DNA of 36,597 nucleotides from Bacillota bacterium (GTDB taxonomy: Bacteria > Bacillota > Dethiobacteria > DTU022). The number at the start of each line of letters is the position of its first letter. The first letter of the stretch is position 1. The notes below the pieces were generated by a model that saw only the letters and a list, made by a program, of their open reading frames with translations, did no database searches and was not told where the DNA came from. The stretch is from positions 1-36,597 of the forward strand of contig VGTO01000007.1 of NCBI GenBank assembly GCA_016874655.1, in the 5' to 3' direction. Shown here in pieces: positions 27,132 through 31,835 of this stretch. The position numbers and the translations under genes were made by a program.

Positions 27132-29217
27132 TCTGTTTAACCGATCAATTGCCTTTAGAGATAACCGACGCCTGCAAAAACTGGTGCTGGTTGTCGCCCT
27201 CTTTTTGGCGATCTATATTATCCTGGTTATCTTCAGCATGCCGGCCCGATTTGATTTAGCGGTCGGCCGTCCCAGTTCGCGGACCATTTTTGCCCCCCGT
27301 GATGTAATCGACGAGTATACTACAAACCAGTTGCGTGAGCAGGCGGCCCAAATGGTGCCTGAGGCCTACGATTATAATCCTCTTGTACTGGAGCGGGCAC
27401 TAAGTGAACTGACCAGATTCTTTGATAATGCGATTGAAATCCAGGCCAATGAAGAGGTAGAACGGCCCGATCAACTTCAATCAATGCAGTTATTAATTCC
27501 TGAAGAGATGCCACTGTCGACAATCTCTGCCCTGCTGACTGACAGTGCAACAATTCGCGATTTACAGGGCAGAATTAATAATTCGATCAGTGAAATATTT
27601 GAAAATGGCATCAGGGAAGGTGAAGAAGATTTAATTCGCCGCCGTCTAAACCAGGAGATAGCCCTTTATCCCTTCAGTGCTGATTTGAAGCGGATTGCGG
27701 AAGTAGTTATTAAGCCTCTTGTGGAACAAAACATGACTCTCAATACCCAGGTGACGGAAGATAACCGCGAGCAAGCCAGGCGCCAGATTGAACCGACCAT
27801 TATTCTACGTGGCACCCTGATCGTCAGTGAGGGTGAGCCTGTTACTGAACAGCAGCTATCGCTGTTGGAAGATTTAGCTCTAATCCGCGGCCAGCAGGCT
27901 GATTATGCCGGCTATCTAGGCCTTTTTCTGTTACTGGTCATTATCTTTATTGTCGTAATTATCTATATGTCGATCTTTGTGCCTGAGGTCTACAGGAGTC
28001 CCAACCTGATGCTCTTGATGGGCTTAATCTTTATTATCACCCTCATGCTGGCGGTGGCTACCACCTTTTTTTCAGGTTACCTGATCCCTGTTGCTACCGG
28101 GGCCATTTTAATAACCGTGTTTTTCGGTTACAAGCTGGCCCTGATCATTAACCTGGTCTTAGCCCTGATGGTAGGTTTGATTACCGGTGGTGATTTTACC
28201 TCTGTGCTAACTGCCTTGCTTGGCGGTTTGGTGTCGATTTATGCCGTTACCAGGCTTAGCCAGCGCAGCGATCTGGCCCGGGCCGGTTTTTACGTGGCGC
28301 TGGTCAATGCAGCGCTAATTATTTCCAGTTACCTTTATTCCGGCAATGTAAGCCTGGAAATAGACTCTCTGCGCGGTTTTGGTTATGACCTGGTGGCCGG
28401 TATCGGAAACGGCATTTTTTCATCTGTGGTAGCGATCGGGCTGCTACCTTTTCTGGAAAGTCTTTTTAATGTTACTACAGCTATTACCCTTCTTGAGCTT
28501 TCCAACCCGAACCATCCCCTGCTGCGCGAAATGTTGATGAAAGCCCCCGGAACCTATTATCACAGCATGATGGTTTCCAATCTGGCTGAGACAGCGGCGG
28601 AGAGGGTTAATGCTAATTCCCTTTTAGCCAGGGTGGGAGCCTATTATCATGATATCGGTAAGCTGAAACGACCTTTTTTCTTCTCAGAAAACCAGCTGTC
28701 GGGAGAGAACCCTCATGCTAAACTGTCGCCAAACTTAAGTACCCTGATCATTGGCAGTCACCCCAAAGATGGAGTCGAACTGGGTCGTAAGCACAGGCTG
28801 CCTGAAATTATTTCAGATATTGTTTTACAACACCATGGCACCGGCATGATCTCTTTCTTTTACATACAGGCGCTGGAAAATAACGAGCGCAGCGAGGTAG
28901 TGGCGGAAAATTTCCGCTACGAAGGACCAAAGCCGCAGTCGAAGGAAGCAGCGATTATCATGCTGGCCGATGCGATCGAGGCCGGGGTACGTTCGCTATC
29001 CGACGCAACCGGCAACAAGGTAGAGCAGATGATCAGGAAAATGATCCGGGAGAAAGTCGAGGACGGGCAGCTCGACCAGTGCGACCTGACCTTAAACGAT
29101 ATTGAAAAGATTACCCAGGCATTTATCTATATCATGTCCGGCATTTACCACTCCAGGATCGAATACCCGGAAAAAGATTTGCGGGCAGAAATTGAAAGGA
29201 GCAGAGCAGCCAGATGA
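27106..29217 (+). CDS. pgpH: c-di-AMP phosphodiesterase, PgpH type (7TM-7TMR-HD)
   Basis: A 703-residue membrane phosphodiesterase of the PgpH/YqfF family, which hydrolyses cyclic di-AMP. It has one N-terminal helix (about 25-48), an extracellular 7TMR-HDED domain (to about 265), seven membrane helices (about 270-450) and a cytoplasmic HD domain with YHSMMVSNLAETAA, YYHDIGKL and QHHGTG. I start at the ATG at 27106, since GGAAGGGA is in place just upstream; an in-frame reading from 27028 adds 26 residues encoded inside phoH. It overlaps ybeY by four bases. Confidence 0.94.
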   Translation: MQKKIIPSDLFNRSIAFRDNRRLQKLVLVVALFLAIYIILVIFSMPARFDLAVGRPSSRTIFAPRDVIDEYTTNQLREQAAQMVPEAYDYNPLVLERALSELTRFFDNAIEIQANEEVERPDQLQSMQLLIPEEMPLSTISALLTDSATIRDLQGRINNSISEIFENGIREGEEDLIRRRLNQEIALYPFSADLKRIAEVVIKPLVEQNMTLNTQVTEDNREQARRQIEPTIILRGTLIVSEGEPVTEQQLSLLEDLALIRGQQADYAGYLGLFLLLVIIFIVVIIYMSIFVPEVYRSPNLMLLMGLIFIITLMLAVATTFFSGYLIPVATGAILITVFFGYKLALIINLVLALMVGLITGGDFTSVLTALLGGLVSIYAVTRLSQRSDLARAGFYVALVNAALIISSYLYSGNVSLEIDSLRGFGYDLVAGIGNGIFSSVVAIGLLPFLESLFNVTTAITLLELSNPNHPLLREMLMKAPGTYYHSMMVSNLAETAAERVNANSLLARVGAYYHDIGKLKRPFFFSENQLSGENPHAKLSPNLSTLIIGSHPKDGVELGRKHRLPEIISDIVLQHHGTGMISFFYIQALENNERSEVVAENFRYEGPKPQSKEAAIIMLADAIEAGVRSLSDATGNKVEQMIRKMIREKVEDGQLDQCDLTLNDIEKITQAFIYIMSGIYHSRIEYPEKDLRAEIERSRAAR

Positions 29218-29681
29218 CCGTCAGGATAGAAGTATTGCATGGAAAAGAGCTTCTGGCAGAGGATTTTATCGCTAACCTTGAAAAACTGCTCGATCAAATG
29301 CTTTTAGACTATGATTTGCAGAGCGGCGAGGTGGCGGTGGCCATCGGCACTGATGAACTGCTGCACCGCTTAAACCAGGAGTACCGCAACCAGGACCGGC
29401 CAACTGATGTCCTGTCATTTGCTTACCTCGAACCGGGTGAAGACACCGCACCCGGTGATCAGGAATATGCTGTCGGCGATATCTACATTTCGATTGAGAG
29501 GGCAGAGGAGCAGGCAGATCTGGCCGGGCACCAGCTGGAGAATGAAATTGCGCTTTTAGCAATCCATGGGATGCTTCACCTGCTTGGTTTTGATCATCTT
29601 AAGGACGATGAAGCTGAAAAGATGCAAGCCAAGGAAAGTAAATACCTGAGGTTAATAGTTCCTGGCAAAGAGGGAGCGTGA
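29214..29681 (+). CDS. ybeY: Endoribonuclease YbeY, rRNA maturation factor
   Basis: A 155-residue zinc metalloprotein needed for 16S rRNA 3'-end maturation and ribosome quality control. It shows DRPTDVLSFAY in the first half and the three-histidine metal site in HGMLHLLGFDH (His-x3-His-x5-His). It starts on the ATGA overlap with pgpH and so is translationally coupled. Confidence 0.97.
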   Translation: MTVRIEVLHGKELLAEDFIANLEKLLDQMLLDYDLQSGEVAVAIGTDELLHRLNQEYRNQDRPTDVLSFAYLEPGEDTAPGDQEYAVGDIYISIERAEEQADLAGHQLENEIALLAIHGMLHLLGFDHLKDDEAEKMQAKESKYLRLIVPGKEGA

Positions 29682-29684
29682 CCG

Positions 29685-30068
29685 GTGGATAAAGTCTGGC
29701 TCAGTTTAAAGAACGCGTTTTTAGGCCTTAAATATTGTTTTATGACCCAGCGCAATATGATTATTCATGTTGTGATCGGTATTATTGTAATGTTTTTCGG
29801 CTTCTGGCTTAAGGTTTCGAAGTACGATCTGCTTTTTTTACTGGCGGCCGTATTGATGGTATTAGTGGCCGAAGCTTTTAACACGGCGCTCGAGAATACA
29901 ATTGATCTTTACACCAGTGAACGTAACCGCCTGGCCCGCATTGCCAAGGATGTCGCCGCCGGCGCAGTTTTGCTGACATCGGTTTTTGCTGTTATCGTTG
30001 GCCTGATTATTTTTGGCCCTCCACTTTGGCACTTGGTTATCTCCTACCTGGTATCGGCTAACTTCTAG
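29685..30068 (+). CDS. dgkA: Diacylglycerol kinase / undecaprenol kinase family protein
   Basis: A 127-residue integral membrane kinase with three helices, carrying the family signature EAFNTALENTIDL and AKDVAAGAVL. Gram-positive members usually phosphorylate undecaprenol, feeding the cell-wall lipid carrier pool, whereas proteobacterial ones use diacylglycerol; the sequence does not decide between them. The GTG start at 29685 follows GGGAG eight to ten bases upstream, three bases after the ybeY stop. Confidence 0.94.
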   Translation: MDKVWLSLKNAFLGLKYCFMTQRNMIIHVVIGIIVMFFGFWLKVSKYDLLFLLAAVLMVLVAEAFNTALENTIDLYTSERNRLARIAKDVAAGAVLLTSVFAVIVGLIIFGPPLWHLVISYLVSANF

Positions 30069-30095: not shown

Positions 30096-30929
30096 ATGAA
30101 AGATCAGACACTGCTTAAAGCAGCCCGTGCGGCCAGAACGAGAGCTTACGCGCCCTATTCGGGTTTTCTGGTGGGAGCAGCGCTTTTAACTGAGGACAAC
30201 CGGATTGTGACTGGCGGCAATATTGAGAATGCCTCTTATGGCCTTACAGTCTGTGCGGAACGGGTGGCGATTTGGAACGCTGTTCATGCGGGGCACCGCA
30301 AGTTCACCAAAATTGCCGTAGCCACCGACAGCGTCCCTCCGGCCAGTCCCTGCGGGGCCTGTCGCCAGGTGCTTTGGGAGTTGGGCGGCAATATTGAAGT
30401 AATCATGGGGAACCTTTCCGGGGAGCAAATTAAAATGCCGTTAATTGAACTGCTGGCAAAACCTTTTGGAGAGGCATGCTGGGAGGCCAACCCGGTAGAT
30501 GATCAGCTGTTAGCCGGAGAAGAAACCTGGCGCCTGCCATTTACTGCCAACCCGATTGGCTATGTCATCAGCGATTACCCTGAACCGCAGAAAATACCCG
30601 ATCATTACCGGGAGTTGCTCTCAAAGATAATTGTTGATCCGGAGTTTGAAGAAGGCCTCTACCGACTGGATGAGGAAAAAGAAATTATCGTGATCTCACA
30701 TCTGCACAAGGCAAAAGGTTACACTTTAAAGGAGCAGCGCAGCGGCCGGGGCCATGAAGTATATGGCGTTTTTGCCTGCCGCGCCCCTCTCAGGCCCAAT
30801 GCCCTGGCCCAGTCGATCGCGAAGCTGGTGGCAATTGAAAAAAACGTGCTGACTGTAAGAGGGTTGGACCTGATTAACGGCACGCCGGTTATTGATTTGA
30901 AAACAGTTATTCCGCTAAACCAAGATTAA
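30096..30929 (+). CDS. Cytidine deaminase fused to a TrmO-like tRNA methyltransferase domain
   Basis: A 277-residue two-domain protein in one uninterrupted frame. Residues 1-130 are a tetrameric-type cytidine deaminase: Cys53-Ala-Glu55 and Pro85-Cys86-x2-Cys89 supply the zinc site and proton shuttle, with NASYGLT before them. Residues about 149-277 match the TrmO/TsaA (UPF0066) beta-barrel fold, which adds a methyl group to t6A37 of tRNA: PIGYVISD start, DPEFEEGLYRL, GVFACRAPLRPNAL, and VRGLDLINGTPVIDLK. The usual RPNPIG motif is changed to RPNALA. The deaminase sits in its normal slot before era, so the fusion was gained at the 3' end of cdd. Whether the second domain is active is open. Confidence 0.88.
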   Translation: MKDQTLLKAARAARTRAYAPYSGFLVGAALLTEDNRIVTGGNIENASYGLTVCAERVAIWNAVHAGHRKFTKIAVATDSVPPASPCGACRQVLWELGGNIEVIMGNLSGEQIKMPLIELLAKPFGEACWEANPVDDQLLAGEETWRLPFTANPIGYVISDYPEPQKIPDHYRELLSKIIVDPEFEEGLYRLDEEKEIIVISHLHKAKGYTLKEQRSGRGHEVYGVFACRAPLRPNALAQSIAKLVAIEKNVLTVRGLDLINGTPVIDLKTVIPLNQD

Positions 30930-30947: not shown

Positions 30948-31835
30948 ATGCACCGATCCGGTTTTGTAGCATTAATCGGCAGGCCAAATGTCGGCAAATC
31001 TACGCTGCTGAACGCTCTGCTTGGTGAAAAAGTGGCGATCATCTCCGATCGGCCGCAAACCACCAGAAACCAGATTCGCGCTGTTCTGACCCGGGAAGAG
31101 TCGCAGATCATCTTTATTGATACCCCGGGTTTGCACAAACCGAAGCACCTGCTCGGCGCAGAGATGGTGAAAATGGCCAGCTCTACCCTACAGGAAGTCG
31201 ACCTGGTAGCCCTTATTGTTGAGGCAAATGAGAGGCCGGGTCAGGGTGATCGGTACATCGCCGATCTGCTCAATGCCGCTAACTGCCAACTCTTTTTAGT
31301 TCTGAATAAAAGTGATCTTACCGCACCGGATCAGCTGACCAGAAACCGTGAGCTATACTTAGAGCTGTGCACCTTTAGCGCGTCGTTTTCCCTCTCAGCC
31401 CTCAATCATGAAAACCTTGAACCATTCCTGCAGGCGGCGATTGATCTGCTACCCGAAGGACCACAGTACTACCCGCCCGAGATGATTACCGATCAGCCGG
31501 AGCACTTTATTGTCGCCGAAATTATCCGCGAGAAGATCATTATGCTGACCCGGCAGGAGATTCCGTTTTCGATTGCCGTGGTGGTGGAAGAGATGAAAAT
31601 GCGCGAAAACAAAGATCTGCTCGATATCAGGGCCGAAATATTTGTGGAACGCAAATCCCAGGTTGGCATTATTATCGGTAAGGGCGGAATGCTTTTAAAA
31701 GAAGTTGGCACCAAAGCGAGACAGGATTTGGAGGCGCTATTTGGCGAAAAGATCTTCCTCGACCTGCGGGTTAAAATAAAGCGCGACTGGCGCAACCGGG
31801 AAGAAGAACTGCGTCGCCTCGGCTACCGCGGATAA
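30948..31835 (+). CDS. era: GTPase Era
   Basis: A 295-residue GTPase that binds the 3' end of 16S rRNA during 30S assembly. G1 is GRPNVGKST, G2 lies in the QTTRNQIRA segment, G3 is DTPGLHKPKH and G4 is NKSD. The C-terminal KH domain carries IIIGKGGMLLKEVGTKAR. The ATG at 30948 is 18 bases after the cdd fusion gene, in the standard order. Confidence 0.98.
   Translation: MHRSGFVALIGRPNVGKSTLLNALLGEKVAIISDRPQTTRNQIRAVLTREESQIIFIDTPGLHKPKHLLGAEMVKMASSTLQEVDLVALIVEANERPGQGDRYIADLLNAANCQLFLVLNKSDLTAPDQLTRNRELYLELCTFSASFSLSALNHENLEPFLQAAIDLLPEGPQYYPPEMITDQPEHFIVAEIIREKIIMLTRQEIPFSIAVVVEEMKMRENKDLLDIRAEIFVERKSQVGIIIGKGGMLLKEVGTKARQDLEALFGEKIFLDLRVKIKRDWRNREEELRRLGYRG

Follow-up and report, generated by a model that had tools for sequence, protein, structure and literature searches.

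A lineage-fixed fusion of a cytidine deaminase and a short TrmO-like barrel at the cdd locus of one Bacillota family

The fused gene and its locus

The window analysed here is a stretch of 36,597 nucleotides from a Bacillota bacterium (GCA_016874655.1, contig VGTO01000007.1). Positions 30096–30929 of its + strand form a single ATG-initiated open frame of 277 codons, encoding a protein of 277 residues. The start codon lies 27 bases 3' of dgkA and the stop codon lies 18 bases 5' of era. The protein is divided into an N-terminal cytidine deaminase (CDA) domain, a variable linker and a C-terminal TrmO_N/UPF0066 barrel (Table 1). In Pfam, dCMP_cyt_deam_1 matches residues 2–97 (7.2e-20) and TrmO_N (PF01980) matches residues 170–273 (2e-23; 83.3 bits against a gathering cut-off of 26.8), so that both domains exceed the curated cut-offs. 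Together with the uninterrupted frame, these matches confirm the original prediction, which placed a cytidine deaminase and a TrmO-fold domain in one open frame. An internal start from which the barrel could be produced separately was ruled out: the window has no in-frame ATG, GTG or TTG around the linker, and the homologs share no conserved one. A scan for promoters and terminators found about as many promoters as expected by chance, and no clear unit boundary is marked by either class.

Table 1. Features of the fusion and its conserved neighbours in the window
Feature	Coordinates	Strand	Evidence
ybeY (endoribonuclease), conserved upstream neighbour	29214..29681	+	PF02130 1.2e-36; synteny
dgkA-type kinase, conserved upstream neighbour	29685..30068	+	PF01219 5.9e-34; synteny
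Cytidine deaminase domain, tetrameric Zn-type (residues 1–126)	30096..30473	+	TIGR01354, invariant columns, Foldseek 1jtk
Variable linker (residues 127–149)	30474..30542	+	Low column identity, low pLDDT, no start codon
TrmO_N/UPF0066 single-sheet beta-barrel (residues 150–273)	30543..30914	+	PF01980, AlphaFold2, 2nv4 match
FACRAPLRPNALA motif (residues 226–238), contains Arg229	30771..30809	+	AF0241 alignment; roles PMC4132733
DLINGTPVIDLK segment (residues 258–269), Asp258 to Lys269	30867..30902	+	AF0241 alignment; roles PMC4132733
era GTPase, past the fusion stop	30948..31835	+	MMR_HSR1 and KH_2; synteny in relatives

Both halves of the fusion are under purifying selection and neither is decaying. 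In close pairs where dN/dS could be computed, it was 0.03–0.12 for the CDA half and 0.04–0.12 for the TrmO half and was generally higher in the linker than in either, with many of the synonymous distances near or at saturation. The mean column identity drops from 75% and 73% in the two domains to 47% in the linker, and this lower conservation is expected of a tether. As the source genome is fragmented (152 contigs), a frameshift, chimeric contig or misassembly could in principle have joined two genes, but the identical junction is seen in 38 genomes, selection acts on each side of it, and full-length homologs (53–86% identity) recur across 17 genera of one family, so that an artefact is excluded for practical purposes.

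Distribution and origin of the fusion

The fusion is present in 38 of 43 genomes examined from the host's family; four of the 38 copies are cut by contig ends. One relative is recorded as a Syntrophomonadaceae metagenome-assembled genome. The five family members in which it was not found are draft genomes that are 69–93% complete, and one of them (G032) has separate CDA-like and TrmO-like matches. None of 55 genomes examined from other families of the host's class carries the fusion, and a sample of 398 genomes from the phylum gave full-length matches only from the host's family. Outside the phylum, one pattern scan seeded with the TrmO half, which is weak evidence of absence, found no CDA fusion beyond that family. 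Among plasmid records, there was none with one place covering 80% of the query and the best rows were plain CDA. The fusion is a real, lineage-fixed new domain architecture built from two known families, and none of four papers that mention both CDA and TrmO appears to describe it, as judged by titles and the openings of abstracts.

The fusion occupies the native cdd locus, usually directly before era. In unfused relatives, cdd lies in the same cluster, which consists of a PgpH-type HD protein, ybeY, dgkA, cdd, era and often recO. As the position of cdd by era is common to these relatives, the deaminase is the resident of the locus and the TrmO part arrived later. In some relatives, dgkA and the fusion are separated by an additional gene of ~350 codons (L004:2329-3384), which is absent from the window.

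In the host's class, TrmO_N domains turn up sporadically outside the host's family (13 of 55 genomes) but are near-universal within the family, where they nearly always occur as the fused copy. A TrmO_N tree was built from a 130-column alignment, in which many deep branches are weak. Here, the fused barrels are monophyletic (support 100/99) and fall inside a subfamily of short TrmO-like proteins (92/92), apart from Pseudomonas TrmO. This subfamily includes FmdE fusions, stand-alone proteins whose genes lie beside those for a nickel-insertion protein, CbiM or CobO, and a further stand-alone protein encoded between obgE and yhbY. The FmdE–UPF0066 proteins, which have been noted previously (PMC2954224), represent a close TrmO-like subfamily with the same short barrel as the fusion module; there, however, the partner is FmdE and the barrel is N-terminal, whereas here the partner is CDA. 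We propose that, in the ancestor of the family, a short, archaeal-type TrmO-like, AdoMet-binding barrel came to extend the native cdd gene in frame at its C-terminal end. This joining would have taken place within the ybeY-dgkA-cdd-era cluster and the fusion would have been retained since.

The deaminase and the AdoMet-contact residues of the barrel

The deaminase half scores 132.4 bits with TIGR01354, the equivalog model of tetrameric cytidine deaminases, which is above the cut-off of 113.65. In an alignment of 28 fusion homologs, Cys53, Glu55, Cys86, Cys89, Asn42 and Glu44 are invariant. We take the three cysteines to be the zinc ligands, Glu55 to be catalytic, and Asn42 and Glu44 to bind the nucleoside. 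The Cys53-Ala-Glu55, Cys86 and Cys89 signature of the usual pre-era cytidine deaminase, as originally predicted, is therefore in place. In addition, at least 90% of the fusion family keeps Phe124, a residue of the closed nucleoside pocket, and in the full-length model this half matches the Bacillus subtilis enzyme 1jtk with a TMt of 0.90 (Foldseek). The fusion shares its fold, zinc and proton-shuttle residues and era-adjacent position with tetrameric Cdd, from which it differs by the extra linker and C-terminal barrel. It is also the only CDA match detected in the source genome. Given this and its invariant zinc and catalytic residues, the deaminase half is most simply read as an active salvage enzyme, most likely a tetramer with the ordinary role in cytidine/deoxycytidine salvage.

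The full-length AlphaFold2 model consists of two folded domains with a low-confidence join at residues 122–149 (pLDDT <50). Modeling of the barrel by itself (71 sequences) gave a mean pLDDT of 92.9, and its best structural match is AF0241 with bound AdoMet (2nv4), with a TM of 0.86. All ten PDB matches of this model with E <0.001 are UPF0066/TrmO proteins, and Foldseek also matches the full-length model to AF0241. Residues 149–277, for which a TrmO relationship had been proposed, thus contain a domain placed in this superfamily by both profile and predicted structure. Like AF0241 and the archaeal-type short UPF0066 proteins, the fusion has a single-sheet barrel with the Arg/Asp/Lys contacts and without a DPRxxY domain.

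Arg229 aligns with Arg82 of AF0241, which contacts the AdoMet carboxylate, and is kept in 27 of the 28 fusions. Asp258 and Lys269, which align with AF0241 Asp111 and Lys122, are invariant in all 28. Lys122 of AF0241 comes from the other subunit, and the E. coli substitutions R92A and K136A abolish activity (PMC4132733). The exception at Arg229 is L012, which has His; the same genome (G015) encodes a second TrmO_N protein, L065, which has Cys there. Unlike AF0241, in which Gln22 is an AdoMet contact, the barrel joined to CDA has a shortened loop without a Gln at that place. The E. coli equivalent of Gln22 is Gln25, replacement of which by Ala causes strong impairment. The counterpart of Gln22 is also missing from several stand-alone TrmO_N subfamilies, so that this residue does not define the UPF0066/TrmO_N superfamily.

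The original prediction was right that RPNALA stands in place of RPNPIG, and it took this as a possible sign of different SAM binding. That second part is not supported, as the Arg/Asp/Lys contacts are kept and the pattern RPN[P/A/S/H/K][I/L/V][G/A/S] is common in stand-alone and fused homologs. An aberrant motif was ruled out by RPNPIA, RPNSIA and RPNHLG in stand-alone homologs. The barrel probably uses S-adenosylmethionine. Net charge was considered as an indicator of RNA binding and was discarded as uninformative.

Function of the C-terminal half

Our preferred explanation, to which we give a probability of about one half, is that of a clade-specific bifunctional protein, combining a salvage deaminase with a class VIII AdoMet-methyltransferase module. 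The C-terminal half would most likely be catalytically active as a class VIII AdoMet-dependent methyltransferase. Its active site would form at a dimer interface, with Lys269 crossing over; a CDA tetramer could then carry two barrel dimers on flexible linkers. The two activities would share a carrier, or be co-expressed, rather than form a channelled pathway. The barrel's substrate is probably an RNA base, a nucleoside or a small metabolite, with t6A37 not proven. Against this explanation stand the lost Gln22 counterpart and the His that replaces the essential Arg in L012; in addition, deaminase activity is read from residues and the barrel's substrate is a guess.

A tentative alternative, which we consider clearly less probable, is that of a genuine TrmO, in which the C-terminal domain makes m6t6A37 in tRNA-Thr(GGU). 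Here, fusion to cdd would be a neutral or co-expression event in the operon, and either the barrel or the CDA tetramer would recognize RNA in place of the DPRxxY domain. Consistent with this, the source genome has no TrmO_N domain other than the fusion barrel, which retains the essential Arg and Lys. The genome also encodes a tRNA-Thr(GGU) with C31–G39, G34 and G35, which are the determinants of E. coli TrmO (PMC4132733); its UGU and CGU tRNAs have A31–U39 instead. The presence of this substrate is a property of the host and not of the protein; it leaves room for m6t6A synthesis, and m6t6A in tRNA-Thr(GGU) is a possible product of the barrel.

Several observations argue against a genuine TrmO. 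The C-terminal DPRxxY domain, which is found in gamma/beta-proteobacteria and mammals and is needed for m6t6A in E. coli (PMC4132733), is absent from every fusion, the protein stopping after the barrel. The synthesis of m6t6A by short archaeal homologs has itself been doubted (PMC4132733). With TIGR00104, the TrmO equivalog model, the fusion scores 74.5 bits, below the cut-off of 93.25; as the short stand-alone relative L145 scores above it, this model separates functions poorly and the cut-off is no functional proof either way. The barrel has the fold and core AdoMet motif of bacterial TrmO (E. coli YaeB and Pseudomonas aeruginosa 7BTU), but it lacks DPRxxY, falls below the cut-off and lies on a separate branch, grouped with FmdE-fused and cobalt/nickel-associated homologs. 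The loss of Gln22 and the many related-family genomes without any TrmO_N domain, which are the majority, also count against it. Of the proposed TrmO/TsaA identity, the fold therefore stands, whereas the assignment as a t6A methylase is weakened by the missing DPRxxY, the lost Gln22, the TIGR00104 score and the grouping with non-canonical short homologs. The barrel is probably something other than the textbook tRNA methylase that the TrmO name implies. An automatic "TrmO" label on such domains likely overstates present knowledge, and the t6A label is best used with reserve.

We consider unlikely a more specific version of the bifunctional reading, in which the nucleoside, nucleotide or RNA methylated by the TrmO-like domain would be linked to the deaminase through metabolism; a modified nucleoside set free from RNA would be an example. 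If true, this would be a branch of pyrimidine or modified-nucleoside salvage not described before and fixed in a single bacterial family. We give still less credence to the barrel as a non-catalytic AdoMet sensor, which would regulate the deaminase and couple pyrimidine salvage to methylation status. Family-wide retention of the fusion suggests some coupling, CDA is the conserved ancestral partner, and the AdoMet-contact residues are kept despite the loss of Gln22. However, the Arg and Lys that are essential for methyl transfer are conserved together with their surrounding motifs, and the long, variable linker argues against a tight allosteric interface.

C-to-U editing, in which the barrel would present tRNA to the deaminase, is highly improbable. 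There are precedents for cytidine deaminase folds joined to tRNA-acting domains in TrcP of Vibrio cholerae (PMC9553926) and in CDAT8 of Methanopyrus (PMC9957541), which uses THUMP. The deaminase domains of both are RNA editors, and that of TrcP has no sequence similarity to other deaminases. The fusion, however, is the only CDA match of its genome, scores as a tetrameric, free-nucleoside enzyme and retains Phe124. Furthermore, all recovered tRNA genes already carry U8, U33 and the T-loop TT, with no C8, C33 or C54/C55, leaving no obvious C in need of editing.

Short TrmO-like barrels occur widely in archaea and anaerobes and, to our knowledge, no substrate has been assigned to them. Few concrete clues to their role exist, and one of them is this fixed fusion, whose partner is an enzyme with known chemistry; as the two are in a single soluble protein, both activities are open to testing. 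In other phyla, short TrmO_N domains are joined to a range of other domains, namely cupin and Ykof, FmdE, an HhH-GPD glycosylase and glyoxalase (L033:2478-3470, L036:3980-5107, L041:2852-4066 and L047:3536-4396), which suggests a reusable AdoMet module and not a dedicated tRNA enzyme.

Other TrmO-like proteins were seen along the way. In related families, L055–L062 and L164 are ~260–290 residues long with a C-terminal region that lacks DPRxxY; that of L058, the one of this group scanned, had no Pfam match. The protein with the best profile-search score outside the host's family is the short stand-alone L145 (L145:114-2252), encoded between obgE and yhbY, both of which are ribosome-assembly genes. 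Finally, L149–L152, which belong to the same subfamily and are either stand-alone or FmdE-fused, adjoin corrinoid-, cobalt- or nickel-related genes, their neighbours being a periplasmic binding protein, CbiM, a nickel insertion protein and CobO.
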